NCBI RefSeq assembly: GCF_014651235.1
Contig: NZ_BMWM01000001.1
Span: 1-64,000 of the forward strand
DNA from: Leuconostoc lactis KCTC 3528 = DSM 20202
GTDB taxonomy: Bacteria > Bacillota > Bacilli > Lactobacillales > Lactobacillaceae
Direction of reading: 5' to 3'
Length of the DNA stretch: 64,000 nt
Part shown: in pieces, positions 10,616 through 45,689 of the stretch
How the letters are laid out: every line of letters begins with the position of its first letter
How positions within the stretch are numbered: the first letter of the stretch is position 1
Program-made: the position numbers and the translations under genes
Notes under the pieces: generated by a model
Database searches by the model: none
The model's input: the letters and a program-made list of their open reading frames with translations, nothing else
Told to the model about the DNA's origin: nothing

Positions 10616-10646
10616 AAAATCGCGCAAATTATTGCGCGATTTTTTA
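10614..10646. terminator. Bidirectional terminator between the DUF2929-type gene and aroD
   Basis: A long perfect stem (AAAAATCGCGCAA with its complement) is flanked by A and T runs on both sides, so it can end transcription from both directions, including the aro operon. Confidence 0.88.
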
Positions 10647-11531
10647 TTTGGCTTGCCAAGCTGCTCTTAATTCACTTATTGTGAGTTGTCCTGGTGCACT
10701 TACAGGTTGGCCATCTAAGACCGCAAAGGTCATTTCTGAGCCATATTGATACCCTTCAATCCGTGACCGCTGTCCCAATAGCCCCATGCTAATGGTGATG
10801 AGCGGCTGTGCAATTTGTGCGGCTTGTGTGGCCAGCAATAAGCGCTCAACATCCGCTTCATCATGTGGTGTCACCGCAAGTTTCACAATATCAGCACCCG
10901 TTGCCGCCAAATCAGCTAAATAAACCGGCACATCTGGTGTCTCATTTAAGTCATGATACGACATGATGACGGGCACACCAACTGCACGCGCGGCCGCCAT
11001 GATTTTATCACGGAATTCGGCAGCTAACGTATATTCCACATCAACAGCGGCAAAATGATAGCCCGATTTTAACGCATTGACCATGAACAACGTATATTCA
11101 AGTGGTGACATTTCGCCCCGACCACCTTGTGCTTGCGTGCGATACGTCAAAATAATAGGAAAGTCGCCAATCGTCTCAAACACTGACCCCGTCAGTTCTT
11201 TAATGATTTGTTGGTTCATAATCGGCCAATTCGCCTTAAATTCCTGCTGGGCTTGGTCGATTTCTGCTAACATTTTAGCTTCCGTCATCGCGGAAACATC
11301 TTTTTGCGCTAACGCTGCTTGTGCGCCTGCTTTGACTTGTTGCCACATCACCGCTTCAGTAAAATCATCCGCAATATAGTCGGCGCGCCATTCCACCACG
11401 TCTGGCTTTCGGGCTTGGAGTTGCTGGGCAAACGGTGTCAATTTATCAGTTGGGCCAAGCATTAATGGCACAGCGATAACTGGCTTACCAGTTGGACTTT
11501 CAGGAAGGTGTAATTGTTCTCGTATTGTCAT
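10644..11531 (-). CDS. aroD: 3-Dehydroquinate dehydratase, type I
   Basis: The enzyme removes water from 3-dehydroquinate to give 3-dehydroshikimate through a Schiff-base lysine. The protein of 295 residues shows the type I features VVEWRADY (about 44-51), ILTYRT, SYHD, the DIVKLAVTP strand with the active lysine near residue 217, and the SMGLLGQRSRI loop. It is somewhat longer than the usual ~250 residues because of an insert at about 72-105. It is the last gene of the aro operon and overlaps the dehydratase-like gene by 4 bp. Confidence 0.93.
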   Translation of the reverse strand: MTIREQLHLPESPTGKPVIAVPLMLGPTDKLTPFAQQLQARKPDVVEWRADYIADDFTEAVMWQQVKAGAQAALAQKDVSAMTEAKMLAEIDQAQQEFKANWPIMNQQIIKELTGSVFETIGDFPIILTYRTQAQGGRGEMSPLEYTLFMVNALKSGYHFAAVDVEYTLAAEFRDKIMAAARAVGVPVIMSYHDLNETPDVPVYLADLAATGADIVKLAVTPHDEADVERLLLATQAAQIAQPLITISMGLLGQRSRIEGYQYGSEMTFAVLDGQPVSAPGQLTISELRAAWQAK

Positions 11532-12081
11532 TTGATTTGATAGACAACCCAGACCATTTGTGGACTTAATCGTTGTCGCACTTGGTACTTTGGGTCTTCG
11601 CTTTCTGGTAATTTTAAGAATTGTGCTTCTGATATAATTGTAAACCGATTTTGGTCATTTATAAAGGCTGACATGGCGACAGGCTTACTGGGGGCAAAAA
11701 TCACCGAGGGTCCCCAGGCATTATCTAAGCTATTAGCGCGTAAATATTGGGCCAATAATCCCTCAGTTGGGCATGGATGACAGCCACATTTCGTGCATAA
11801 GCGGTATTTTCAACCACAACAAGCGTCATCAAAGGCCGAGCAAACGTGACCACAATGGTTGCCTTTTCCCAAGCCAAATAGTTAAAATTTGCCCAATCCA
11901 ACGCTGGCAATTGATGCGATTTAAACGCTGCTGGCACGAGAATTTGATCGCCGGCATAATCGTCTAAATGCGTTAAAATACTTTCAAAATCTTGATGTAA
12001 AACCAACGTCTGGTCGGTAATGTAATCTTTTGCTGCCTGTTCTGAGTCGGTTCCGACAGGCCCTAACGTGTGTAGTTTCAT
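11528..12081 (-). pseudogene. Prephenate dehydratase-like protein, frameshifted
   Basis: Two overlapping frames make one protein of about 190 residues. The first (12081 to 11725, 118 aa) begins MKLHTLGPVGTDSEQAAK, like the substrate-binding start of prephenate dehydratases. The second (ending at 11528) continues after a one-base shift near 11764. Restoring one G in the CTGAGGG stretch gives a continuous reading across the join (QLEGLLAQYLRANSLD). There is no C-terminal ACT domain, and the length and LGPxGTxSExAAK start resemble BacA-type prephenate decarboxylases, so product specificity is uncertain. It overlaps aroK by 4 bp and aroD by 4 bp. It could be a real mutation, a sequence error or programmed slippage. 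Confidence 0.65.
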
Positions 12082-12878
12082 CGCTTTAACTGCTTATTTT
12101 CTTTATTAATCGCTGAATTTGTCAGGATGGTCATAATTTGATCAATCATGTCATCTGAGATATCAGCCGATTGCGCAAAATCATATTTCAATAAATCACG
12201 CATCTGTTGTATGCGCGCTGTTTGTACGGTAGCCATGCCAAATTTTTCCTTGTACTCGGCTACGGCCCCAACAATTTGCATACGTTTTTCAATCATTTGA
12301 AAAATTTGACGATCAAGCGCATCAATTTCCGAGCGTAATTGTAACAAATCTAATTCATCTTCCGGCGTACTAAATAACGCGGTAATTTCTGCTGCCAGTC
12401 GTTCAGGCGTTTTACCAACCGTTTCCACTGTGACATGTGCCACACTACGATATAACGGATCCCGTAATTGCCATAGCTGAAAAAATGCTGCGGTTGATTT
12501 TTCTTGCAACAACGGCCGTTGACCTTCGTTCAGCAAACGACTAATCGTACTTTCCAAGTTCCCATGCAGATAAATAATCGTGGCCGATGAGGCTTGCAAT
12601 ATCGCCCGATTCTCCGGCCGCTCAATCACCCCACCACCGGTCGCCACGACACCTTTAAACGTCTGCAAATCTGCTAAAACTTGGGTCTCCAGCGCACGAA
12701 AACCCGCCTCGCCTTGACTGGCAAAAATTTCTGGAATCGTTTGGCCAGCGCGGCGTTCAATTTCTGAATCACAATCGATAAAATTGGCTTGGTGTTGGCG
12801 GGCAATTTCCTGACCAATCGTCGTTTTGCCGGCGCCCATAAATCCAACCAATAGCAATGTTTCTGGTGCTGTCAACAT
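12078..12878 (-). CDS. aroK: Shikimate kinase fused to chorismate mutase
   Basis: The 266 residues hold two domains. Residues 5-170 are a shikimate kinase: Walker A GFMGAGKTT (12-20), the DCDSEIE shikimate-binding motif (35-41), GFRALE (59-64), the VATGGG loop (78-83) and a lid region with RPLL. Residues 178-262 match an AroQ-type chorismate mutase: LRSEIDALDRQI, KRMQIV and VAEYKEKFG, with the arginine, lysine and glutamate positions of the fold. One protein would thus catalyse steps on both sides of EPSP synthase and chorismate synthase. It starts 13 bp after tyrA and runs into the dehydratase-like gene with a 4-bp overlap. Confidence 0.9.
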   Translation of the reverse strand: MLTAPETLLLVGFMGAGKTTIGQEIARQHQANFIDCDSEIERRAGQTIPEIFASQGEAGFRALETQVLADLQTFKGVVATGGGVIERPENRAILQASSATIIYLHGNLESTISRLLNEGQRPLLQEKSTAAFFQLWQLRDPLYRSVAHVTVETVGKTPERLAAEITALFSTPEDELDLLQLRSEIDALDRQIFQMIEKRMQIVGAVAEYKEKFGMATVQTARIQQMRDLLKYDFAQSADISDDMIDQIMTILTNSAINKENKQLKR

Positions 12879-12891
12879 GATTGTCGCTACC

Positions 12892-13731
12892 TCATAAATG
12901 TTGTCGTGCCTTTTGCGCAGATTGAATCAATCGTAACAATTGGTCAGTATCTTGTGCGGCCAATGCCTGATTAAATGCAGTCAGTTCCGCCATCAGTTGT
13001 TGCGTACTGGCAAGTACCGCTGCTTGATTGCTCATTAAAACGTCCGTCCAAAGTTTGGGATCGCTGGCTGCAATGCGCGTGGTATCCTTAAAGCCACCGG
13101 CTACATATTGCCCAAAATCGGCCACATCCCCAAGTTGCTTAACCGCTGCATTCATCAACGCAAACGCCGCAATATGTGGCGCATCACTAATCATCGCCAT
13201 CAAGTGGTCATGGGTGGTTGTGTCAATCGTTTTAAAGTTCGCCTGTAAGGGCGCCAACAACGTTTGCAATGTCGATAAAGCAGCCTGCCCTTTTTGATTT
13301 GGGATGAGAAAATAGGGTGCTTGCTGGTATAACTGTGGGTTGGCGGCAGTCACCCCACTTAAATGCGTCCCTGCCATCGCATGTCCACCAATGAAGGCCA
13401 CATGAGCGAGTTGCGTGGCTGCTACAGCCATAATGTCTCGTTTTGTCGAGCCAGTATCTGTGATGATGACATCCGATTTCAAAGGCAGCGACGCGAGTGT
13501 CTGTAATGCTTGGATAATCCCTGTCACGGGTGTTGCTAAAATAATGACGTCAGCTTGCGTGGCGACTAGCGCTAATTGTGATGCCGTTTCGGCAACAATT
13601 CCTTGGGCTAACGCTAGTGTTAACGTGTTTGGGTCTTGATCAACACCAATCACGTGATGCGCCGGTTGGGCGTTCAAACAAACCGCCAATGACGCCCCCA
13701 TTTCTCCTAACCCTTGCACAACAATGTTCAT
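12892..13731 (-). CDS. tyrA: Prephenate dehydrogenase
   Basis: The enzyme oxidatively decarboxylates prephenate to 4-hydroxyphenylpyruvate using NAD(P), the first committed step to tyrosine. The 279-residue protein has an N-terminal Rossmann fold (MNIVVQGLGEMGASLA, GxGxxG at 7-12). It continues with the conserved TDTGSTK (about 91-97), FIGGHAMAGT (114-123) with its catalytic histidine, and the helical dimerisation domain. There is no ACT regulatory domain. It overlaps aroA by 4 bp and precedes the kinase-mutase fusion, so the tyrosine branch enzymes are adjacent. Confidence 0.92.
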   Translation of the reverse strand: MNIVVQGLGEMGASLAVCLNAQPAHHVIGVDQDPNTLTLALAQGIVAETASQLALVATQADVIILATPVTGIIQALQTLASLPLKSDVIITDTGSTKRDIMAVAATQLAHVAFIGGHAMAGTHLSGVTAANPQLYQQAPYFLIPNQKGQAALSTLQTLLAPLQANFKTIDTTTHDHLMAMISDAPHIAAFALMNAAVKQLGDVADFGQYVAGGFKDTTRIAASDPKLWTDVLMSNQAAVLASTQQLMAELTAFNQALAAQDTDQLLRLIQSAQKARQHL

Positions 13732-15023
13732 CGCATCACCTGCATCAAATCGGCCAAAAATCCAGGATAAGAGACACTCATCGCATCTTCGCCGGTCATC
13801 ACAACATCTTGATGAGCAATCAAAGCGGCCACCGCATTCATCATACCAATCCGATGGTCCCCATGCGTCTCTAACAACGTGGACTCATTGCTACCATGGA
13901 GTGGTGTGCCACCGTGAATAATCATGCCATCCGGTAAGGCCTCAATATCTGCGCCCAACTTTGTTAATTCAGCAACCACCGTGGCAATACGATCTGTTTC
14001 TTTCACCCGCAGTTCAGCCGCACCCGAAATGACAGTATCCCCTTGTGCTTGCGTGGCAGCTAAGGCCAAAATTGGGATTTCGTCTACAGCACTAGGAATA
14101 TCTGCAGCGGTGATTTGTATCCCATGTAACGGTTGGGCGCGCACTGTAATATCTGCAGTCGGTTCATAGCCGTCATTCACATGAGTCAGCGTTAAGTCAG
14201 CGCCCATCTGCCGTAGCAGACGCAAAACCCCATCGCGCGTTGGATTAATGCCCACATTTTTCAAAGTAATCTCAGAATTTGGGGTAATCAAGGCAGCCAC
14301 AATGAAAAAGGCAGCACTGGAAATATCAGCTGGTACTACGACATGTTGGCCCATCAATGTTGGCTGCTGTGACAAGGTAATGACGCCATGATCTGCCTGG
14401 ATTTGACCGCCAAATTGGCGCAGCATCCGTTCCGTATGGTCACGTGAAGGTAATTTTTCAATAATTGTCGTCTGTCCCGCGGCTTGCATCCCAGCTAAAA
14501 TAATGGCACTTTTAACTTGCGCCGACGCCACCGGCATCTCATAGGTGATACCGGTTAACGCTTGATTCGCATGAATCACACCTGGTAATTTATCACCATC
14601 GGTCAACGTAATTTGCGCCCCCATTTGTGATAACGGTGCTAACACACGTTGCATCGGCCGCTGACTTAATGAGCCATCCCCAAAAATTGTCATGTCAAAG
14701 GGCTGTTTACTCAACAACCCCATTAACAAGCGTGTGGAAGTCCCTGAATTTCCCATGTCTAATGGCGCGTTAGGCGCCTGAAAATGTTCAAGTCCTTGTC
14801 CTTGAATGCGGACATGTGTGCCGGTTTGTGTGATCTGAACCCCCAAGTCCTGAAAAATGCGCATGGTGTGTAACACATCATCAGAATCTAAGAAATTTTC
14901 AATTTCAGTCATGCCTTGGGCAATCGCCCCAAACATCAAGGCGCGGTGTGAAATAGATTTGTCCCCAGGGACAGTTAGTTGCCCGTGTAGGCCCGTTGTC
15001 GGGGCGGGCGTTAATCGAATCAT
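13728..15023 (-). CDS. aroA: 3-Phosphoshikimate 1-carboxyvinyltransferase (EPSP synthase)
   Basis: The enzyme transfers enolpyruvyl from PEP to shikimate-3-phosphate. The 431 residues show the family start LTVPGDKSISHRALM (about 15-29), the LDMGNSGTSTRLLMG PEP-loop near 90, SRDHTERML, and the catalytic DEIPILALAA region near 315. I chose the ATG giving MIRLTPAP, with GGAGAGG just upstream; the in-frame extension above it is not family-like. It sits 37 bp after aroC and overlaps tyrA by 4 bp. Confidence 0.96.
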   Translation of the reverse strand: MIRLTPAPTTGLHGQLTVPGDKSISHRALMFGAIAQGMTEIENFLDSDDVLHTMRIFQDLGVQITQTGTHVRIQGQGLEHFQAPNAPLDMGNSGTSTRLLMGLLSKQPFDMTIFGDGSLSQRPMQRVLAPLSQMGAQITLTDGDKLPGVIHANQALTGITYEMPVASAQVKSAIILAGMQAAGQTTIIEKLPSRDHTERMLRQFGGQIQADHGVITLSQQPTLMGQHVVVPADISSAAFFIVAALITPNSEITLKNVGINPTRDGVLRLLRQMGADLTLTHVNDGYEPTADITVRAQPLHGIQITAADIPSAVDEIPILALAATQAQGDTVISGAAELRVKETDRIATVVAELTKLGADIEALPDGMIIHGGTPLHGSNESTLLETHGDHRIGMMNAVAALIAHQDVVMTGEDAMSVSYPGFLADLMQVMR

Positions 15024-15060
15024 AGCCTCTCCTTTTTTCCTGTTATCTGAAAATATCTTG

Positions 15061-16239
15061 TTAGAAACGACGAACTTCTTCACGGTAGGCCGCGACCTGT
15101 TCTTTCATCCGGTCAATATTGTCGGCATCAAACTTATCCAAAACGGCCTTAGCCAACTCAATGGCCACCATCGCTTCGGCAATCACCGCAGCTGCCGTCA
15201 CCGCCGTCGTATCGGAACGTTCAATGGACGCTTTGTGATCTTGGTGGGTATCAATATCAACCGACTGCATTGGCCGATAAAGTGTTGGAATCGGCTTGAC
15301 CACACCGCGCACCACAATCGCTTCCCCAGTTGTCATGCCACCTTCAAAGCCGCCTAAATTGTCTGAGCCACGATAGAAACCCTTTTCCGCATCCCAGAAA
15401 ATTTCGTCCATCACTTGGTCGCCGTATTTTTCAGCATTGTCAAAACCACCGCCAAATTGCACACCTTTAAACGCATTAATCCCAACAATGGCCCGCGCGA
15501 TTTTACCATCCAATTTTTCATCGGCTGAAACATAAGACCCCAAACCAACTGGCATACCAGTTGCAATGACTTGGACCTGCCCGCCGACCGTGTTGGCATC
15601 GCGTTTTGTTTTATCAATCACGTCACGAATCGCCGCATCAGCTGCAGCGTCAAGGGCGCGGGTTTCAAAGCTTTCCGTGACCTCACGTAAAGCTTGTAAG
15701 TCATGATACTGGGTTAACTGGCTCAAATCAGATTTAGCTGGCCCAACATTGACCACAAAACCATGGACATCCACGCCTATTTCAGCCAAAAGCTTCTTGG
15801 CTACGGCACCGACCGCCACGCGCATCGTCGTTTCTCGGGCAGAAGAACGTTCCAATACGTTGCGCAAATCATCATGGTGGCGGTATTTGATCCCCCCCAC
15901 CAAATCAGCATGTCCTGGTCGTGGGCGCAATACTTTCCGGAGCGTATTTTCCGGTGTAGCCGGCGTGTTAGGCGCCATAATTTTTGACCAATTATTGTGA
16001 TCATCATTATGCACATTTAAAGTGATTGGTGAACCAAGCGTGTACTGATGCCGCACCCCTGTTAAAAAAGTGACCGTGTCTGTTTCAATTTTTTGGCGCT
16101 CACCCCGACCATACCCGCGTTGGCGCCGTGCAAGTTGTTCGTTAATGTCTTCTTGGGTAAGATGTAAGCCGGCAGGAATCCCTTCAATCACAGCAATTTC
16201 TTCTGGGCCATGGCTTTCGCCAGCAGTTGTATATCTCAT
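15061..16239 (-). CDS. aroC: Chorismate synthase
   Basis: The enzyme uses reduced FMN to convert EPSP to chorismate. It begins exactly at the family start MRYTTAGESHGP (392 residues), with the three FMN signatures: GESHG (7-11), RRQRGYGRGERQKIE (about 39-53) and RPGHADLVGGIKY near 105. Unusually, no ribosome site lies immediately before the ATG. The only AAAGG is 33 bases upstream, on the far side of a 7-bp hairpin in the gap after aroB. Re-initiation by ribosomes leaving aroB or hairpin-aided spacing may be needed. Confidence 0.95.
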   Translation of the reverse strand: MRYTTAGESHGPEEIAVIEGIPAGLHLTQEDINEQLARRQRGYGRGERQKIETDTVTFLTGVRHQYTLGSPITLNVHNDDHNNWSKIMAPNTPATPENTLRKVLRPRPGHADLVGGIKYRHHDDLRNVLERSSARETTMRVAVGAVAKKLLAEIGVDVHGFVVNVGPAKSDLSQLTQYHDLQALREVTESFETRALDAAADAAIRDVIDKTKRDANTVGGQVQVIATGMPVGLGSYVSADEKLDGKIARAIVGINAFKGVQFGGGFDNAEKYGDQVMDEIFWDAEKGFYRGSDNLGGFEGGMTTGEAIVVRGVVKPIPTLYRPMQSVDIDTHQDHKASIERSDTTAVTAAAVIAEAMVAIELAKAVLDKFDADNIDRMKEQVAAYREEVRRF

Positions 16240-16253
16240 CGTCTTATTATATG

Positions 16254-16271
16254 TTGCGCCCACAGGCGCAA
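16254..16271 (-). other. Intercistronic hairpin between aroB and aroC
   Basis: A 7-bp perfect stem (TTGCGCC/GGCGCAA) with a 4-base loop and no T run lies between an AAAGGA site and the aroC start. It could bring the ribosome site closer to the ATG, stabilise a processed end or slow translation. The role is inferred only. Confidence 0.5.
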
Positions 16272-16282
16272 TTCCTTTCAAA

Positions 16283-17350
16283 TCAAATTGATGCCATAAA
16301 TTCCGGCATGGCGGATAACGCTTTGGGCACAATAACGGGTTGCCCAACCTCAGCAAGCGCAACCAGGTTCAAAGTACCGGCGTGATTTTTCTTATCATTA
16401 ACTAATCGGTCAAAGAAGGCTGGTGTGCCTAGCAAATCAGAGGTAATTGGCAGACCAACTGCCGTTAATCGAGATTGTAATGCTGGGACAAGATCAACTG
16501 GCGAAACGCCGTCGCGCGCCATGCGTTCAGTCAACGCCATCATACCAATCGCCACTGCTTCACCATGTCGCAGATCCCCATGTGCCAGTAATTCAATCGC
16601 ATGACCTAACGTGTGGCCAAAGTTGAGGAACTGCCGCTGCCCGGCTTCTTTTTCATCCGCCATCACGACCGCTGCTTTGTAAGCAATGGCGCGGGCTGAT
16701 AATGCTTGCGCATGGGTGCGAATATCTGGGATGCTCCGAATCTTACCCGTCAAATCAAAAAATTCAGCTCCGGCTAACGCAGCCGTTTTCACCACTTCCG
16801 CATAGCCTTCCACTAAATCACGATCCGACAAAGTAGCCAAGTAAGTCTGATCAACTAAGACCAAGTCAGGTTGATAAAAAGTGCCAGCAATATTTTTGGT
16901 TGCGCCTAAATTGACAGCAGTTTTACCACCAACTGATGAATCCACTTGCGCCGTCAACGAGGTTGCAATTTGAATATAGGCAATGCCACGCATATACAGT
17001 GATGCAACCACGCCAGCTAAATCACCAATCACGCCACCACCTAACGCCACCACCCCATCACTGCGGGTAAATCCATGCTCGGCCAGGGCGCTTATTAGAT
17101 CACCGGCAACTTGGAGCGATTTTGATTGTTCGCCAGCCGGCACTTCGAGTGGTAAAACATGAAAGCCGGCCGCTTCGAGTTGGCGTGTCGTATCGGCTAA
17201 ATAAAGTGGCCCAACATGACTATCAGTAATTAGAGCGATTTGCCGTGATGACCAAACGGCTGCGACTTCGTCGCCAATGCGCGTGTGGTTATTATCATCA
17301 ATTTTAACGTCATAAGCCTGTTGGCCAACATTGACAGTTACAGTCGTCAT
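16283..17350 (-). CDS. aroB: 3-Dehydroquinate synthase
   Basis: The NAD-dependent, zinc-binding enzyme cyclises DAHP to 3-dehydroquinate. The 355-residue protein contains the family segments GGGVIGDLAGVVASLYMRGI (NAD loop), QIATSLTAQVDSSVGGKTAVN, KNIAGTFYQP, and the zinc ligands in NFGHTLGHAIE and LRHGEAVAIGM. I chose the ATG at MTTVTVNVG, with an AAAGGAAAG ribosome site; the in-frame codons above it are not conserved. It follows the DAHP synthase gene by 25 bp. Confidence 0.96.
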   Translation of the reverse strand: MTTVTVNVGQQAYDVKIDDNNHTRIGDEVAAVWSSRQIALITDSHVGPLYLADTTRQLEAAGFHVLPLEVPAGEQSKSLQVAGDLISALAEHGFTRSDGVVALGGGVIGDLAGVVASLYMRGIAYIQIATSLTAQVDSSVGGKTAVNLGATKNIAGTFYQPDLVLVDQTYLATLSDRDLVEGYAEVVKTAALAGAEFFDLTGKIRSIPDIRTHAQALSARAIAYKAAVVMADEKEAGQRQFLNFGHTLGHAIELLAHGDLRHGEAVAIGMMALTERMARDGVSPVDLVPALQSRLTAVGLPITSDLLGTPAFFDRLVNDKKNHAGTLNLVALAEVGQPVIVPKALSAMPEFMASI

Positions 17351-17375
17351 GATCTTTCCTTTCTCACATGCCATA

Positions 17376-18386
17376 TCATTGCGCCACTAAATCAGCTTGC
17401 ACAACCTCACGCACCCGACGCGCTTTGTCCGCTAATGCGCTAAATTCTGCTGGGGTCAGTGCTTGCGCCCCGTCAACAAAAGCATGCGCTGGATCATCAT
17501 GAATCTCCGTCATCAAGCCCTGAGCCCCCGCTGCAATCGCTGCCAAAGCCAACGGTGCCACAAATTTTGCAACCCCAGCAGCATGTGAGGCATCAGCAAT
17601 CACTGGAAAATGAGTCAAGCTCTGCAATACTGGAATCGCTGACACATCAATGGTGTTGCGCGTGTACTTATTATCGTAAGTGCGAATACCGCGTTCCATT
17701 AAAATAATTTGCGTATTCCCACCAGCCACAATGTATTCGGCGGCATTTAACAAGTCATCAATCGTAGCAGACATCCCGCGTTTCAAGACAACAGGCTTCC
17801 GCTTTTGTCCAAGAGCTTTCAACAAGGCAAAATTCTGCATATTGCGTGTGCCAACTTGGAAAATATCCGTGTACTGATCCACGAGCTCAACGTCACGGGT
17901 ATCCAAAATCTCGGTGACCATATCCATCCCCAAAGCATCAGCAGCGGCACGATGCGCTTGAAGACCAGCTTCACCATTCCCTTGGTATGAGTAAGGTGAT
18001 GTGCGTGGTTTAAAGGCCCCACCACGTAAAATCGTTGCCCCAGCCTTTTTAACGGCCTCACCCATGGTCATCACATGGTCCGGACTTTCAATGGCATCTG
18101 GCCCAGCCATAAAGACAAAATTATCGCCGCCAATGACAGAATGCTTGGTCGTAATCACCGTGTCTTCTGGATGGAAGTCACGTGATGACGCAATGGCGGT
18201 ATGGTGGTTGGTAATAACATCAATAATGTCATTTTTAAAAGGTGCCAGTAGCTCATCTGATAATGTTTTAACGCCGGCTAATGCCACACGGTTGTTGTGG
18301 ACAAATACCGGTTTAAGTGGATCACCTGTGCTCAGGTTATCGGCCAAATGTTGGGCAGTGGTATTGTTATTTGCAATAATAATCAT
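17376..18386 (-). CDS. 3-Deoxy-7-phosphoheptulonate (DAHP) synthase, type I beta
   Basis: The enzyme condenses erythrose-4-phosphate with PEP, the entry reaction of the pathway. The 336 residues comprise a small N-terminal domain (1-85), as in the ferredoxin-like regulatory domain of the Bacillus/Thermotoga-type enzymes, and a TIM barrel with RGGAFKPRTSPYSYQG, the QVGTRNMQN segment, LKRGMSAT and the DASHAAG metal-binding histidine. The motif normally written GPCxxES, whose Cys binds the metal, here reads GPDAIES with Asp97. Asp could still bind a metal, but this should be checked against close relatives. No chorismate mutase domain is attached. It overlaps aroE by 4 bp. Confidence 0.92.
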   Translation of the reverse strand: MIIIANNNTTAQHLADNLSTGDPLKPVFVHNNRVALAGVKTLSDELLAPFKNDIIDVITNHHTAIASSRDFHPEDTVITTKHSVIGGDNFVFMAGPDAIESPDHVMTMGEAVKKAGATILRGGAFKPRTSPYSYQGNGEAGLQAHRAAADALGMDMVTEILDTRDVELVDQYTDIFQVGTRNMQNFALLKALGQKRKPVVLKRGMSATIDDLLNAAEYIVAGGNTQIILMERGIRTYDNKYTRNTIDVSAIPVLQSLTHFPVIADASHAAGVAKFVAPLALAAIAAGAQGLMTEIHDDPAHAFVDGAQALTPAEFSALADKARRVREVVQADLVAQ

Positions 18387-19216
18387 ATTGTTATTCCTCG
18401 AATTGTTTCTGCCATCAACTGGCGATCAGCTGGTTGGTTAAACCAGTATTCAAAACTTAATGCGCCCTGATTCACTAGCATCGCCAACCCATTTTGCGTA
18501 GGTAATTGGCGACTAGCAGCGGCACGTAATAAGCCTGTTTGTTGGTTACGATAAATCATATCTACCACTAACGTATGTTGTGGCAAGAGGCCAATTTGGT
18601 AATCCGTTAATAAGGTGCGGGCATCATTCATCCCTACCGTTGTGGCATTAATTAACAAATCGGCTTGTTGTAAGGCTGCTGAGAGTGTTTGATTATCAGC
18701 CAAATCAGCCAATTGCCCAATCCCTTGGCTGAGATATGCCACGGTTGTTTCCCGTTGTGACCAATCCAGATGCGCACGGTTGAACACGGTTAATTGTCGC
18801 ACCCCATATTGTAGTGCCGTTGCCATAACGGCACGCGCAGCGCCACCAGTGCCAAGTAACACCACCCGTTCATGTGGTTGGTTACGCGGGATACTTTGCC
18901 AAAAACCATCGCCATCTGTGCTCGTTCCAATCAAGCGCCCTTTTACATTTTTGACCGTATTCACCGCTTGCAGACGTTGCGCCAGTGGTGTGAGTTCATC
19001 TAAATACGGGATAATGGTTGATTTATGGGGGGTCGACACATTGAACCCACCAACTGATAGGACCCGTAATCCTGCAACCGCAGCACCCAATTGTTCGGGT
19101 GCAACATCAAATGCTTGATAATACGCATCGATTTGCCGTGCGGCGATCATCCTATTTTGCATCACTGGCGATAGCGAATGCATAGCCGGTTGGGCAATCA
19201 AACCATATATTGTCAT
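18383..19216 (-). CDS. aroE: Shikimate dehydrogenase
   Basis: The NADPH-dependent enzyme reduces 3-dehydroshikimate to shikimate. The 277 residues show the substrate-site SLSPVMQN (14-21), NVSTPHKSTI (NVTxPxK type) with the catalytic lysine near 64, the GTGGAARAV nucleotide loop around 127-135, and NATTVGM followed by the C-terminal helix with NQGALSFEYW. It starts 1 bp after tkt ends and overlaps the DAHP synthase gene. Confidence 0.95.
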   Translation of the reverse strand: MTIYGLIAQPAMHSLSPVMQNRMIAARQIDAYYQAFDVAPEQLGAAVAGLRVLSVGGFNVSTPHKSTIIPYLDELTPLAQRLQAVNTVKNVKGRLIGTSTDGDGFWQSIPRNQPHERVVLLGTGGAARAVMATALQYGVRQLTVFNRAHLDWSQRETTVAYLSQGIGQLADLADNQTLSAALQQADLLINATTVGMNDARTLLTDYQIGLLPQHTLVVDMIYRNQQTGLLRAAASRQLPTQNGLAMLVNQGALSFEYWFNQPADRQLMAETIRGITI

Positions 19217-19217
19217 A

Positions 19218-21158
19218 CTAACTCCCTAAATATTGCGTAATTTTTTCAGTCAACACATCCACGGCCAAACCAACGTCTTCAAGAACGGTTTGCGGTGCAG
19301 CGCTCATGCCGAAATGATCAAGGCCAAATATCAAGCCATCATCGCCGGCAACAGCCTGCCAACCAAGCGTTGTGCCTGCTTCTATTATCACATTTTTAGC
19401 CTGGTCTTTGGGGATGATTGCAGCTTTTTTTGACTGATCAAGCGATAGAAAACGTTGTAAGTCTGGCATTGAAATGACCCGACTAGGCTGTGGGAGCTGT
19501 TGGCTAACAGCCAGTGCTAACTGCACTTCTGACCCTGTGGCAATCAAATTAACGACGGCCGCTGGTGCCGCGACAATTTGCGCTGCCCCAGCAATCATGG
19601 CCTGATGCGCTTGTACTGGTGTGCCCTGTATACCTAGACTGCCACGACTTAGGACTAAAACCGTGGGTGTATCTGTTGATAATAGGGCTTGGTGCCAGGC
19701 GGCCGCCACCTCTTCAGCTGTCCCTGGTCGTAAGACGTTCACCCCAGGAATCAGGCGCAACCCCATTAACTGTTCAACTGGTTGATGCGTCGGCCCATCT
19801 TCACCAACTGTGACACTATCATGGGTAAAGACATAAATGACAGGGACGTGCTGCAAGGCACTCAAACGAATAGCGGCCTTCATATAGTCGGAGAATGCCA
19901 GAAATGTACTACCAAACACTTTGGTGCCACCGTGTAACCCAATCCCATTCATGACTGCGCCCATACCAAACTCTCTTACGCCAAATCCAATGTTACGACC
20001 CGTACGATTGTTTGGCGCAAACAAGGATGAATCAGTAATCGTCGTTTGCGTGGAACTGGCTAAATCCGCAGCCCCACCCCACAACTGTGGCCAAGTTTGA
20101 GCGACTGTTTGTAACGTGATTTTTCCAATTGTACGCGCTGCTTGGTGTTGCGCGGTAGCATTCAGGGTTGGTATTTGTGGACTCTGACATTGCGCAAATT
20201 CAAGATAAGCTTGTAACTCGGCAGCACTCGGCTTTGTTTGTTGTGCGAGACGCTGCATTATTTTGTTACGCATATGGGTAACGGGTGGCTCATCGAGGCT
20301 AAAGTTCGTCGTTAATGTGGTGCCTAAATTATCCGCTAACGCGTTGAGTTGGGCCGGTGTTAGCGGCGTCCCGTGGGCTTGATGCGTCCCAGCATATGGT
20401 CCTGAATCACCAATGGTTGTCCGCACCGCAATCAACGTGGGTTCTGGTGACAATTTGGCATTTTCAATCGCATCATGAATGGCCGCTAAATCATTACCAT
20501 CAGTAATGCGTCGTACATCCCAACCATAGCTAGCAAATCGGGCGACATTATCCGCCGTATCGGCCCGCGCCCGCTGGCCATCTAAGCTCACCTGATTATC
20601 ATCGTATAACACAATCAGTTTTGCCAGCGCCTGTTGGCCAGCCAGCGTCGCGACTTCATGACTGATGCCTTCCATTAAGTCACCATCCCCAACTAGCGCA
20701 TAGGTGAAGTGATCAATGACCGTTGGAAATTGGGCATGAAGTTTAGCTTCTGCCATCGCCATACCAACTGCCATGCCTAATCCTTGTCCCAGTGGCCCAG
20801 TGGTCGCATCCACGCCTAGTGTCACCCCCACTTCAGGATGCCCAGGTGTTTTTGAATGTGGTTGACGAAACGCGGCTAAATCAGCAGCCGATAGTGCAAA
20901 ACCTGCGGCATGCAAAGTGGCATACAGTAATGCTGCCCCATGACCTGCTGATAGCACAAACCGATCGCGATTAAGCGCCTCGGGTTGCGCCGGATCCACG
21001 ACCAATTGGTTCGCATACAATTCATAGAGCATTGGCGCCGCTCCCAAAGCAATCCCTGGATGACCCGAGCCTGCTTTGGTAATCATTTGGTTAGCGAGTA
21101 ATCGTAATTGATTAATCGTCTGCGTGGCAATATCAGGTTTTACTAATGTTTCGCTCAT
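19218..21158 (-). CDS. tkt: Transketolase
   Basis: This thiamine-diphosphate enzyme of 646 residues shows AGSGHPGIALG (31-41), the HGAALLYATLH segment, the ThDP signature from GDGDLMEG to LYDDNQVSLDG, and the pyrimidine domain DSVTVGEDGPTHQPVEQL. Its position as first gene of the aro operon suggests a role in making erythrose-4-phosphate for DAHP synthase. That matters in heterofermenters, where the phosphoketolase route yields little of this intermediate (inference). An AGGAAG ribosome site precedes the ATG, just after the second leader terminator. Confidence 0.95.
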   Translation of the reverse strand: MSETLVKPDIATQTINQLRLLANQMITKAGSGHPGIALGAAPMLYELYANQLVVDPAQPEALNRDRFVLSAGHGAALLYATLHAAGFALSAADLAAFRQPHSKTPGHPEVGVTLGVDATTGPLGQGLGMAVGMAMAEAKLHAQFPTVIDHFTYALVGDGDLMEGISHEVATLAGQQALAKLIVLYDDNQVSLDGQRARADTADNVARFASYGWDVRRITDGNDLAAIHDAIENAKLSPEPTLIAVRTTIGDSGPYAGTHQAHGTPLTPAQLNALADNLGTTLTTNFSLDEPPVTHMRNKIMQRLAQQTKPSAAELQAYLEFAQCQSPQIPTLNATAQHQAARTIGKITLQTVAQTWPQLWGGAADLASSTQTTITDSSLFAPNNRTGRNIGFGVREFGMGAVMNGIGLHGGTKVFGSTFLAFSDYMKAAIRLSALQHVPVIYVFTHDSVTVGEDGPTHQPVEQLMGLRLIPGVNVLRPGTAEEVAAAWHQALLSTDTPTVLVLSRGSLGIQGTPVQAHQAMIAGAAQIVAAPAAVVNLIATGSEVQLALAVSQQLPQPSRVISMPDLQRFLSLDQSKKAAIIPKDQAKNVIIEAGTTLGWQAVAGDDGLIFGLDHFGMSAAPQTVLEDVGLAVDVLTEKITQYLGS

Positions 21159-21170
21159 TATTCTTCCTCA

Positions 21171-21209
21171 TAAAAAAATCGTGCAGGGTGTAACCCCCCA
21201 GCACGATTT
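21171..21209 (-). terminator. Aro leader terminator 2, directly before tkt
   Basis: A 9-bp stem (AAATCGTGC/GCACGATTT), extended inside by GGG/CCC pairing, is followed by seven T residues and then the tkt ribosome site. It is a strong intrinsic terminator inside the operon leader, so transcription must read through it to reach the aro genes. Confidence 0.88.
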
Positions 21210-21231
21210 ACCACAACAGTTCACCTGTTAA

Positions 21232-21268
21232 AATAAAAAGCCACTAAGTGTTACACTCCACTTAGTGA
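21232..21268 (-). terminator. Aro leader terminator 1 (strands 3:4)
   Basis: A 9-bp stem (CACTAAGTG/CACTTAGTG) followed by GGCTTTTTATTTT. Its 5' arm shares CTAAGTG with strand 1 and can instead pair with CACTTAG in strand 2, giving a possible antiterminator. Confidence 0.8.
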
Positions 21269-21294
21269 CCCAACCTTGAAAAACCTCTGGCCGC

Positions 21295-21321
21295 TAAGTG
21301 CGTCGTTGACCGACGCACTTA
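21295..21321 (-). promoter_or_regulatory. Aro leader hairpin (strands 1:2)
   Basis: An 11-bp perfect GC-rich stem (TAAGTGCGTCG with its complement, loop of 5) directly follows the leader peptide stop. Strand 2 (21295-21305) carries CACTTA, able to pair with terminator strand 3. Confidence 0.8.
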
Positions 21322-21334
21322 ACATGCGACGGTA

Positions 21335-21388
21335 CTACATAAACCAGAAGTAATAATAGCTATTGTTTTTCAAGATTGTATTGTTCAT
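21335..21388 (-). CDS. Aromatic operon leader peptide (attenuator)
   Basis: A 17-residue frame, MNNTILKNNSYYYFWFM, starts at an ATG about 22 bases after the predicted transcription start and ends in TAG. Six consecutive aromatic codons (Tyr Tyr Tyr Phe Trp Phe, residues 11-16) read all three end products of the downstream pathway. An AGGAA ribosome site of moderate quality lies 12 bases upstream. The codons for residues 5-9 are complementary over 10 bases to 21275-21284, and the Tyr/Phe/Trp codons to CCAGAGG at 21285-21291, so the coding region itself takes part in the leader fold. The composition is very unlikely by chance and is characteristic of ribosome-mediated attenuation. The peptide itself probably has no other function. 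Confidence 0.88.
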   Translation of the reverse strand: MNNTILKNNSYYYFWFM

Positions 21389-21417
21389 GATTTTTCTCGT
21401 TCCTATTTGATGCTCTT

Positions 21418-21446
21418 ACTATAACGTTAAAAATGATAGTTGTCAA
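21418..21446 (-). promoter_or_regulatory. Promoter of the aro operon
   Basis: A perfect -35 TTGACA (complement of 21441-21446), 17-bp spacer and -10 TATAGT (complement of 21418-21423) predict a start near 21410, placing the leader peptide in the transcript. Confidence 0.88.
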
Positions 21447-21470
21447 CAATAAATTAAAAATAAGTGATAA

Positions 21471-22016
21471 TTATTTAATATAGCGATGAATGACGGGATA
21501 AACAATCGCTACCACATAAACACCGATCAAGCGATCAAGGTAATCTGTCCCCACTTGAACCAAAAAGACTGCGACGACTTCATTAATGCCCATGCCATGC
21601 AGCACTTGGACAATCATACTTGGCCCTGATGACGTGATGCCATGAAAGAGCATGACGGTAATTATCGTGCTGACAATCGTTGCTGGCAACGAAATAACCA
21701 AAGCCAGCCACCAAATATTTTTGATATCGGTTGGCTTGAACTTTTTATAGACCAGACCAGCCATTAAGGCCACGGTAATTTGACTCGGCATGTAATAAAT
21801 CGAGAATAAGTCGCCAGTTGCGCCGTTAATCAAGGCTGTTAAGACACCTGTAATCACACCACCAATTGGTCCAAAGAACGCACTGCCTAACAAGGTCCCA
21901 ATTGTATCTAAATAAACTGGTAGCCGTGTATAAAGGGCCAAATGGCCACCCACAATGTTAATCACAGTAAAAAGCGCAATGAGGGCAATTTTTTGTGCTG
22001 AAAACTGTTTTGTCAT
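21471..22016 (-). CDS. ECF transporter S component (substrate unknown)
   Basis: The 181-residue protein has about six hydrophobic helices and the YLDTIGTLLGSAFFGPIGG and TGVLTALINGATGD patterns. These are seen in the COG4720-type S components of energy-coupling-factor transporters, which bind vitamins or related small molecules and use a shared EcfAAT module encoded elsewhere. It overlaps the nucleoside hydrolase gene by 4 bp, so the pair probably imports and cleaves a nucleoside-like compound. Queuosine-type salvage and a thiamin- or pyridoxine-type precursor are both conceivable. The sequence alone does not decide this. Confidence 0.72.
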   Translation of the reverse strand: MTKQFSAQKIALIALFTVINIVGGHLALYTRLPVYLDTIGTLLGSAFFGPIGGVITGVLTALINGATGDLFSIYYMPSQITVALMAGLVYKKFKPTDIKNIWWLALVISLPATIVSTIITVMLFHGITSSGPSMIVQVLHGMGINEVVAVFLVQVGTDYLDRLIGVYVVAIVYPVIHRYIK

Positions 22017-23008
22017 GATAATCGCTCCAAATCTGTGGCGATGTTATCAAGCTCTTTTTCAATTGTTGTTACATCGCGTGTTAATAAGCCACCCACAATA
22101 TAGGCCATCGCCCGTTTAGCGTCAATTTGTTGTAAAATTTTCGCATTTGCTGGTCGCTGCCAAAAGTCGGCCCCGTCCACAATACTTTGCCCCAAGGCGA
22201 CGCCTGAGATTACCACCGTCACATATTTTTCGATGGCTGTTGCCAGTTCAGGATGTAAGGCGTAAACAATGACCAACGGATCGTTAATCACCGCCCCCAA
22301 CACATGTTCTTGCGCCCAATGAAAATCAAAGTAAAATGGCAAAATTTGTTCAACAAAGGCTGATTTATCAGCATCCAAATAATGCATCATTTGCAAAATA
22401 TTGGGCGTCATCACAATTTTACGGGTCACGTCTAGCGGCACCAATTCAATCATCAGCGGACTATTTTGGAAAACATAATCGGCCGCATCGGGATCCACCC
22501 AAAAATTGTATTCAGCAACTGGGGAGGTATTCCCATTGGTTTGATAGGCCCCACCCATCACAATGAAACGTGAAACATGGGACCAAAGTTCTGGTTGCGT
22601 TTTCAGCGACTGCGCGACGTTGGTTAACGGCCCTAACGCCATGAACCAAACGTCATCGTGTGCTTGTAACAAGGTTTTGTACCCTGCTTGCGCATCTAAT
22701 GGTGAAGCGCTCACGTCGGTAACTGGTGGCATTTGGCTATCGCCCATGCCATCCATTCCGTGAGTATCTTGGGCACTCACATATTCATGGGTCCAAGGGG
22801 TCGTGGCCCCAGCAAAGACTGGGATATCTAACCGATCGACTTCACGCAAGACTTTTAGCGCATTGGCGACGCCAATATCAGTTGGGACGTTACCAGCGAC
22901 AATTGAAATCCCAATGACTTCAATCATTGGTGATTGCAATGCCACCAGTAACGCGAGGCTATCATCAATGCCAGGATCAGCATCGATAATCACATGATGT
23001 TTTTGCAT
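22013..23008 (-). CDS. Nucleoside hydrolase (inosine/uridine-preferring superfamily)
   Basis: The enzyme hydrolyses the N-glycosidic bond of a ribonucleoside to base and ribose. The 331 residues begin with the calcium-binding DADPGIDDSLAL motif (9-20). They continue with the GNVPTDIGVANALKVL region, FMALGPLTNVA, FIVMGGAYQ, EYNFWVDPDAA and the C-terminal INDPLVI with a metal-binding Asp. The sequence does not give the exact base specificity. Overlap with the ECF S gene and a structured leader upstream point to a ligand-controlled salvage unit. A GGTAGGAG ribosome site lies 5 bases before the ATG. Confidence 0.88.
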   Translation of the reverse strand: MQKHHVIIDADPGIDDSLALLVALQSPMIEVIGISIVAGNVPTDIGVANALKVLREVDRLDIPVFAGATTPWTHEYVSAQDTHGMDGMGDSQMPPVTDVSASPLDAQAGYKTLLQAHDDVWFMALGPLTNVAQSLKTQPELWSHVSRFIVMGGAYQTNGNTSPVAEYNFWVDPDAADYVFQNSPLMIELVPLDVTRKIVMTPNILQMMHYLDADKSAFVEQILPFYFDFHWAQEHVLGAVINDPLVIVYALHPELATAIEKYVTVVISGVALGQSIVDGADFWQRPANAKILQQIDAKRAMAYIVGGLLTRDVTTIEKELDNIATDLERLS

Positions 23009-45492: not shown

Positions 45493-45506
45493 ACTTTCTT
45501 TTTTAA

Positions 45507-45634
45507 ACTTCTTTATACCCGACTTTACGGTCGGCTCTGGATTTTGACCAGATCAGCTGCTTACGCAGGTCGCGGGCTTACCATGTCTTGCATGTCTCAC
45601 CGCCGGTTGGGATTTACACCCGACCCTGAAGTAT
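45507..45634 (-). promoter_or_regulatory. FMN riboswitch (RFN element)
   Basis: The minus strand carries the RFN conserved blocks in order: CTTCAGGGTCGGGTG, AAATCCCAACCGGCGGTGA, AGCCCGCGA, CTGATCTGG, AAATCCAGAGCCGAC and a closing GAAG. It precedes ribU and a terminator hairpin, so high FMN would stop transcription. Confidence 0.95.
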
Positions 45635-45689
45635 ATTCAATTAAGATTACTTACTAATTGTAACAAAGTAATCATCACAAAGCAATGTT

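Follow-up and report, generated by a model that had tools for sequence, protein, structure and literature searches.

The aromatic operon of Leuconostoc lactis is preceded by a short coding frame rich in aromatic codons, which appears to control the operon as a leader peptide. In the stretch of 64,000 nucleotides that was analysed (the window), this frame and the RNA behind it have the form of a ribosome-mediated transcription attenuator for the whole aromatic operon, in which one stalled ribosome would disarm two terminators. We put the probability of this reading at roughly 0.87. It is grounded here in the frame itself, in its conservation, in the helices of the termination state, which are seen by covariation, and in alternative helices that are co-adapted across lineages.

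The leader frame and its conservation in Leuconostoc

The leader peptide gene (21335–21388, on the minus strand, as are all features of the leader and the operon given below) has 17 codons, is translated as MNNTILKNNSYYYFWFM followed by a stop codon, and ends in Tyr-Tyr-Tyr-Phe-Trp-Phe-Met. The six aromatic codons TAT TAT TAC TTC TGG TTT (21341–21358) open with Tyr and hold Tyr three times, Phe twice and Trp once. Both the frame with six aromatic codons in a row and the near-consensus promoter upstream of it, which the preliminary description had read from the letters, are real. The promoter, TTGACA-17-TATAGT (21418–21446), scores 11/12 and ranks best among eight promoter-like sites in 20800–22200 (shuffles: mean 2.9). 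Its -35 and -10 columns are largely kept in the alignment of relatives, with deviations in L003, L100 and L124. Transcription is predicted to start near 21411, about 20 bases upstream of the leader, which itself lies 29 bases downstream of the promoter and 176 bases upstream of the tkt start codon. As in attenuators, a short frame with clustered codons for the end products of the pathway is thus found between promoter and operon. The leader RNA folds with -93.2 kcal/mol (z = -7.9), a value that none of 200 shuffles equalled. The same strand carries two terminator-like hairpins, a count not above that of shuffles (mean 1.3, sd 1.3). In Leuconostoc the leader seems, as read by eye, to have a weak Shine-Dalgarno sequence.

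The operon is opened by a transketolase gene (tkt, 19218–21158; Pfam PF00456) and continues at 10644–19216 with aroE, DAHP synthase, aroB, aroC, aroA, tyrA, aroK-chorismate mutase, a 118-aa frame and aroD, as assigned by Pfam. The 118-aa frame (11725–12081), which has no Pfam or NCBIfam match, lies between aroK-chorismate mutase and aroD, where pheA might be expected. Its start resembles prephenate dehydratase by eye, and it is possibly a shortened enzyme.

The codon pattern TAYTWYTAYTTYTGGTTY was present in 18 of the 19 genomes of the genus and its reversed-pattern control gave no match there, so that the leader frame is not a product of chance. A DNA search also recovers the leader region within the genus. 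In the nineteenth genome (G013), aroE sits 1.55 kb from the start of a contig that begins within tkt and holds no leader pattern, and the leader should therefore lie off the contig. A parallel case is L006, in which the transketolase is interrupted by the contig start. An alignment of 22 rows was made from the window and 21 other sequences, giving 18 rows of the genus together with L099, L100, L124 and L003 from three other genera; two of the rows are identical. The six-codon run is aromatic in 132 of 132 cells, synonymous TAT/TAC changes included. The second codon of the run is TAT, TAC or TTT, with Phe in the place of Tyr in five of the 22 rows, and the Trp codon is invariant (22/22). The stop is preceded by M, I or T, and the N-terminal part drifts in sequence and length. 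The codons expected to be regulatory are thus conserved while the rest of the peptide drifts, again as in attenuators. The heptamer CCGTCGC after the stop is invariant in all 22 rows, at a distance of 2 nt in 21 of them and 1 nt in the other. Two loci without tkt between leader and aroE, L098 and L100, still retain the leader before the operon. The comparison with relatives that had been proposed with the preliminary description therefore came out in favour of its suggestion of ribosome-mediated attenuation: frame, aromatic codons, stop and competing hairpins are kept, the N-terminus varies, and the leader stays in place where the intervening tkt is missing.

These observations also bear on the idea that attenuation is brought about by an RNA-binding protein or by the speed of RNA polymerase alone, the peptide being irrelevant. 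A protein is compatible with the present data and hairpins alone can terminate, yet such a scheme leaves unexplained why all 132 cells stay aromatic through synonymous and Tyr/Phe changes, and why the spacing from the stop to the heptamer (segment 0 below) is fixed; we find it hardly credible.

The row L003 comes from a metagenome-assembled genome that is labelled as another genus (g18) than the window. Nevertheless it has a Leuconostoc-like leader together with aro genes (aroE identity 64%), and transfer of the operon is possible. In g18 the codon pattern has just one other match (genome G325, locus L142), a frame of 10 residues that has no leader.

Competing pairings in the leader RNA

The RNA behind the frame can be divided into segments 0 to 6. 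Segment 0 (CCGTCGC, 21326–21332) begins 2 nt past the stop codon. Segment 1 (AAGTGCGTCGG, 21310–21320) is a partner of segment 0 or of segment 2, and segment 2 (CGACGCACTTAGCGGCC, 21289–21305) is a partner of segment 1, of segment 3 or, with its 3' end, of the leader codons. Segment 3 (GGGTCACTAAGTG, 21259–21271) is the 5' arm of the terminator T1 and the alternative partner of segment 2. Segment 4 (21238–21250) is the 3' arm of T1, is followed by a U-rich tract and also pairs with segment 5 (21195–21209), which contains the 5' arm and part of the loop of the terminator T2. Segment 6 (21172–21184), the 3' arm and U tract of T2, lies just before the tkt ribosome-binding site. A small hairpin between T1 and T2 (21215–21229), found by folding, recurs with altered sequence in several relatives. 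The segments form a mutually exclusive chain, with 0:1, 2:3 and 4:5 in the read-through state and 1:2, 3:4 (T1) and 5:6 (T2) in the termination state. Two more helices involve the frame itself. In P0, 21365–21374 within the leader codons pair with 21284–21274. In the extra helix PA, the strand CTTCTGGTT (21342–21350), made up mostly of the Phe-Trp-Phe codons, pairs with 21292–21284, which overlaps the end of segment 2.

A ribosome with its A site on a stop codon covers about 13 nt counted from the stop. Here this footprint would be TAG-TA-CCGTCGC-A, which holds the whole of segment 0. With ample charged tRNA, the ribosome would run on to the stop and cover segment 0, so that 1:2 would form, followed by T1 (3:4) and T2 (5:6), and the operon would be off. 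In an untranslated leader, the end of segment 2 and its surroundings would be taken up by pairing with the aromatic codons and by P0; 3:4 and 5:6 would remain, and the operon would again be off. A ribosome stalled on the aromatic codons would instead hold the codon strand of PA and leave segment 0 free, which would allow 0:1, 2:3 and 4:5 to form. T1 and T2 would then both be disarmed and the operon would be on. In this scheme, that the frame is translated, that ribosomes stall, which amino acid is limiting and that transcription terminates are all inferred.

Among the 22 rows, the termination state (P0, PA, 1:2, T1 and T2) is paired in 98.2% of cells, with changes on both sides in 15 of 48 pairs. 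On each of the five measures all 500 shuffles fell short, though related sequences can exceed such shuffles. The double changes are found in 3/8 counted pairs of P0, 0/8 of PA, 1/10 of 1:2, 3/12 of T1 and 8/10 of T2; PA is paired in 99.4% of cells with no pair changed on both sides. The competing hairpins and terminators reported earlier behind the frame are thus borne out as mutually exclusive pairings whose termination-state helices covary. The alternative state (0:1, 2:3 and 4:5) is paired in 97.3% of cells, against 27–40% when slid, and among close relatives most of this reflects identical sequence. With so little variation in these rows, its covariation score is not above that of shuffles (205/500 reach it), and one of 23 pairs has a double change. 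Alignment column 182 has an invariant G within the loop of 1:2, whose other positions vary; this G is required only by 0:1 and may be a hint of that helix.

As in an attenuator, terminator and antiterminator exclude each other, the termination state being supported by covariation and the alternative state by the exchange of segments between lineages. For the exchange, 43 leaders were chosen by hand (26, and 17 loci of the FSYFR type described below), and 40 were used, L190, L208 and L212 having been dropped at the automatic choice of hairpins. Segments paired better with their own partners than with those of other lineages in 4:5 (-11.4 versus -5.5 kcal/mol), in 2:3 (-12.8 versus -7.3 kcal/mol) and between codons and segment 2, the pairing of PA (-15.9 versus -7.8 kcal/mol; n = 40 for all three). 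The same holds for 0:1 (-12.7 versus -5.7 kcal/mol), for which three rows of genus g13 were left out (n = 37). In each of the four cases, 0/10000 permutations did as well. Since these permutations test assignment and not phylogenetic independence, the analysis was repeated with one random representative per lineage, in eight lineages, or six for 0:1, grouped by hand with L003, L099 and L124 of other genera placed with Leuconostoc. The median share of permutations as good as the true assignment was 0.00005 for 4:5, 0.0015 for 2:3, 0.00004 for codons with segment 2 and 0.0014 for 0:1, the last being the smallest possible share with six lineages. The pairing 2:3 was the weakest in this repeat, with a largest share of 0.035. 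Single leaders failed the exchange, namely L209 (20/20 foreign segments as good), the copy in the window (L001), L007 and L146 for 4:5; L112, L114, L183 and L146 for 2:3; and L146, L148 and L150, where 0:1 is absent, for 0:1. In g13, segments 0 and 1 were not found and the frame ends in an overlap with segment 2; read by eye, the chain nevertheless keeps its parity. Of the three g13 rows in which 2:3 was tested by exchange, L111 alone supported it. The hairpin assigned as T1 is often without a U tract outside the Leuconostoc-type rows. An example of the co-adaptation is L011, which has TAC (Tyr) before Trp where Leuconostoc has TTC (Phe), and whose downstream partner reads ACCAGTAA versus ACCAGAAG, so that the codon and its RNA partner differ together.

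In a simpler attenuator, regulation would be confined to T1, T2 would damp transcription constitutively, and 4:5 would be a by-product of similar hairpins. The 5' arms of several T1 and T2 do look alike, and 4:5 is weak in the window copy. Against this stand the co-adaptation of 4:5 across lineages, seen in the full permutations (0/10000) and again when each lineage was represented once (median share 0.00005), and the consideration that a constitutive T2 would blunt any response. We consider such a design unlikely.

The scheme of ribosome positions was also examined by folding 34 leaders, those of g13 and g30 left out, with the ribosome footprint masked. The mean number of 2:3 pairs was 2.5 in the untranslated leader and 3.4 with the ribosome at the stop, and rose to 7.1 when the A site was placed five codons upstream of the stop. 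In this last position 24 of the 34 leaders formed at least five pairs of 2:3, compared with seven when untranslated and 11 with the ribosome at the stop. These 11 leaders are contrary to the model, which would have few 2:3 pairs there; L236 and L240 are among the leaders with 2:3 in that position. L151, L245 and L196 hardly respond, and L229 goes the opposite way. Stalling thus favours the antiterminator in the model on average over the 34 leaders, and weakly for the copy in the window. That copy reaches at most 1.4 expected pairs of 2:3 under any stall, and L091, L003, L098 and L124 are about as low. The low value at equilibrium in the window is due to the great stability of 1:2. The duplex energies of 0:1 (-8.5) and 2:3 (-14.3) together are close to that of 1:2 (-19.1) before loop costs, so that the order of folding may matter. 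The pairing 4:5 of the window has -6.1 by its arms alone (119/200 shuffles as good) and -11.7 when the T1 loop is included, a modest result equalled by 62/1000 shuffles. In the modelling, 2:3 and 4:5 would be the weakest points for this particular copy, and kinetics would have to decide its switching.

Related leaders in other Lactobacillales

The pattern TAYTWYTAYTTYTGGTTY was found in 47 of 397 genomes of the family and its reversed control gave 26 matches (tables counted by hand); with so many control matches, those of the pattern outside the genus were checked singly. Matches at L115–L123, L126, L142–L145, L147, L149, L152 and L153 were rejected by eye as lying in other frames or having no convincing leader. 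Leaders with RFYYYWFI[KQ] precede tkt-aroE-DAHP synthase in Liquorilactobacillus sucicola and tkt in L. sicerae. Other leaders lie ahead of aroE in genomes of g3, g2 and g32 and, in G258, ahead of tkt and aroE. In the genera g13 and g30 the gene that follows the leader is a class I/II aminotransferase, as assigned by Pfam for L111 and L146.

A second group of leaders ends in [YF]FSYFR, has no Trp in the run and occurs mostly in other families of the order. Its codon pattern was found in 133 of 395 genomes of the order, versus eight for the reversed control (hand count). By eye, 41 of 50 inspected loci look like leaders, L231 and L251 being one place counted twice; the other nine (L204, L205, L207, L220–L222, L227, L243 and L244) do not. 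The genes behind FSYFR leaders include aroE, aroC and those for DHQ synthase, DAHP synthase and prephenate dehydratase, as well as genes for TrpX-like ABC binding proteins, a label resting on NCBIfam scores under the curated threshold. In L212, L213 and L214 (leader at 1500), FSYFR leaders precede closely similar genes, which encode a CitMHS-type transporter by Pfam on L212; this position suggests a role in the uptake of aromatic compounds or their precursors. The Rfam trpB ncRNA motif (RF04312) was seen at 762–863 of L187 and 3267–3374 of L190, upstream of FSYFR-led aroE.

The leader is missing from many aroE and tkt loci. Upstream of aroE, a credible leader was found in 10 of 36 regions (L172, L174, L183, L187–L191, L196 and L201) and none in 26, in a scan that required five aromatic residues of seven; L201 was included because its leader was already known. 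In several of the 26 leaderless regions aroE has other neighbours, but in L169 a transketolase frame lies upstream and the scan still gave no leader. Among 80 tkt-like loci (L002–L081), convincing leaders are confined to L002–L005, L007 and L011; the others may include tkt loci outside aro operons. The view that a leader reading several aromatic amino acids would be uncommon in these bacteria has not stood up, as such leaders recur in many genomes of the Lactobacillales, though not in all. We find it rather probable that attenuators of this aromatic kind form one large class shared across the order. Each would work like a row of dominoes with at most seven segments, and a single ribosome at a single stop codon would fix the parity of all pairings and with it the state of two terminators. 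Pairing of the codons with segment 2 would keep untranslated messages off, the codon run and its partner would co-evolve, and the class would take in an established 'sRNA' family and a 'riboswitch' that has been proposed.

The sRNA family is RF02863 (Enterococcus sRNA 2410), which matches four of 16 related loci over the leader region (L230, L187, L190 and L224), that is, four of seven loci of the FSYFR type, L233, L208 and L209 being without a match. It has no match in the window, is filed as an sRNA gene and differs from the Leuconostoc leader in its peptide run, YFSYFR without Trp. In Enterococcus faecium, ten sRNAs have been validated by Northern blot, with two transcripts for sRNA_2410, according to the available part of the report (PMC5593968). 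Two transcripts fit premature termination, an interpretation that does not appear in that part of the source. The element gbs2033 of Streptococcus agalactiae, one of two elements with stated lengths of 195 and 270 nt, has been proposed as a riboswitch before an ABC-transporter operon and is conserved in Lactobacillales; it also precedes an E. faecium aro operon, and short and long transcripts are given for the group of eleven new elements to which it belongs (PMC4448216, available part). The FSYFR-type leader is probably this putative riboswitch.

A metabolite-binding riboswitch, or a tRNA-binding element for aromatic amino acids, with the short frame incidental, would agree with a long structured leader that contains terminators and with the proposal of Rosinski-Chupin et al. 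for gbs2033 (PMC4448216, available part), an element that is upstream of an E. faecium aro operon as well. A whole-window Rfam search, however, gave no T-box (RF00230), aptamer or other family at gathering score at the leader, and at E<=5 in 21100–21500 just two matches, to a snoRNA and a microRNA family, both far below their gathering scores and neither relevant. What is conserved in the leader is the aromatic codons, the stop position and the pairings, not an aptamer-like core, and codon run, codon order and RNA sequence change together between lineages. Such an element is therefore very improbable. The only known RNA element that the window yields is an FMN riboswitch at 45502–45637 (minus strand, 100.6 bits, Rfam), so that none could be assigned to the leader.

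Amino acids sensed and comparison with known attenuators

The trp, his and phe leaders of enteric bacteria encode short peptides with regulatory codons, and the position of the ribosome picks the terminator or the antiterminator, as would be the case here; the enteric his leader also forms a chain of alternating pairings. The Leuconostoc leader differs from them in having two serial terminators in one chain, in that the ribosome at the stop would mask segment 0, outside the frame, and in that the regulatory codons pair with segment 2. T-box leaders share with it the sensing of amino acid starvation; here a coding frame would take the place of tRNA binding, and the window holds no T-box. The genome from which the window comes (G000) has 17 T-box matches at E<=0.001, two of them over the cut-off, and T-boxes and a leader-peptide attenuator thus seem to coexist in it. 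Aromatic regulation in low-GC Gram-positive bacteria has reportedly been treated by Panina et al. in 2003. For his genes, leader attenuators have been predicted in some other Firmicutes, T-boxes being commonest in Lactobacillales (PMC9413887, available part). In the open-access literature, as far as its texts were available, no description of an aromatic leader peptide in Lactobacillales was found, subscription journals being mostly outside this scope.

Neshat is said to have described in 2014 the AroR leader before aroF in Corynebacterium glutamicum. Like the present leader, AroR stands before an operon with DAHP synthase; it differs in being actinobacterial and in that no Trp is named, and the likeness considered here is one of peptide and operon. 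According to a review of 2025, limitation of Phe was effective at AroR (Phe-Tyr-Phe) and availability of Tyr had no effect (PMC11802643). This insensitivity makes a claim of three inputs more doubtful. Joint sensing of Tyr, Phe and Trp by the Leuconostoc leader is putative, with Trp the least certain. The Trp codon is also half of the helix PA and may be kept for it. That the leader senses Tyr and Phe only, with TGG retained for its helix with segment 2, is given somewhat less than an even chance. The sister FSYFR leaders have no Trp codon in their run, and in masked folding the best A-site stalls in the responding Leuconostoc-type rows L090, L092 and L099 were at codons -4 to -6 (Phe, Tyr and Tyr), not at Trp (-3). 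On the other side, Trp is invariant in the 22 Leuconostoc-type rows and is also found, in different contexts, in the leaders of Liquorilactobacillus, g13 (Agrilactobacillus), g3, g30 and g33.

Overall, the comparison of sequences supports the attenuation reading well, and the leaders would represent a new and widespread variant of this kind of control. If this is true, many families of lactic acid bacteria and related organisms would use leader-peptide attenuation, beside T-boxes, to govern both aromatic biosynthesis and aromatic uptake; one sRNA family of Rfam would have to be reinterpreted, and so, probably, would a riboswitch proposal. The chain of pairings by which one ribosome would set two terminators is a design that can be tested. 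The leaders would also link uncharacterised genes, such as those for the CitMHS-type transporter and the aminotransferases, to aromatic metabolism.
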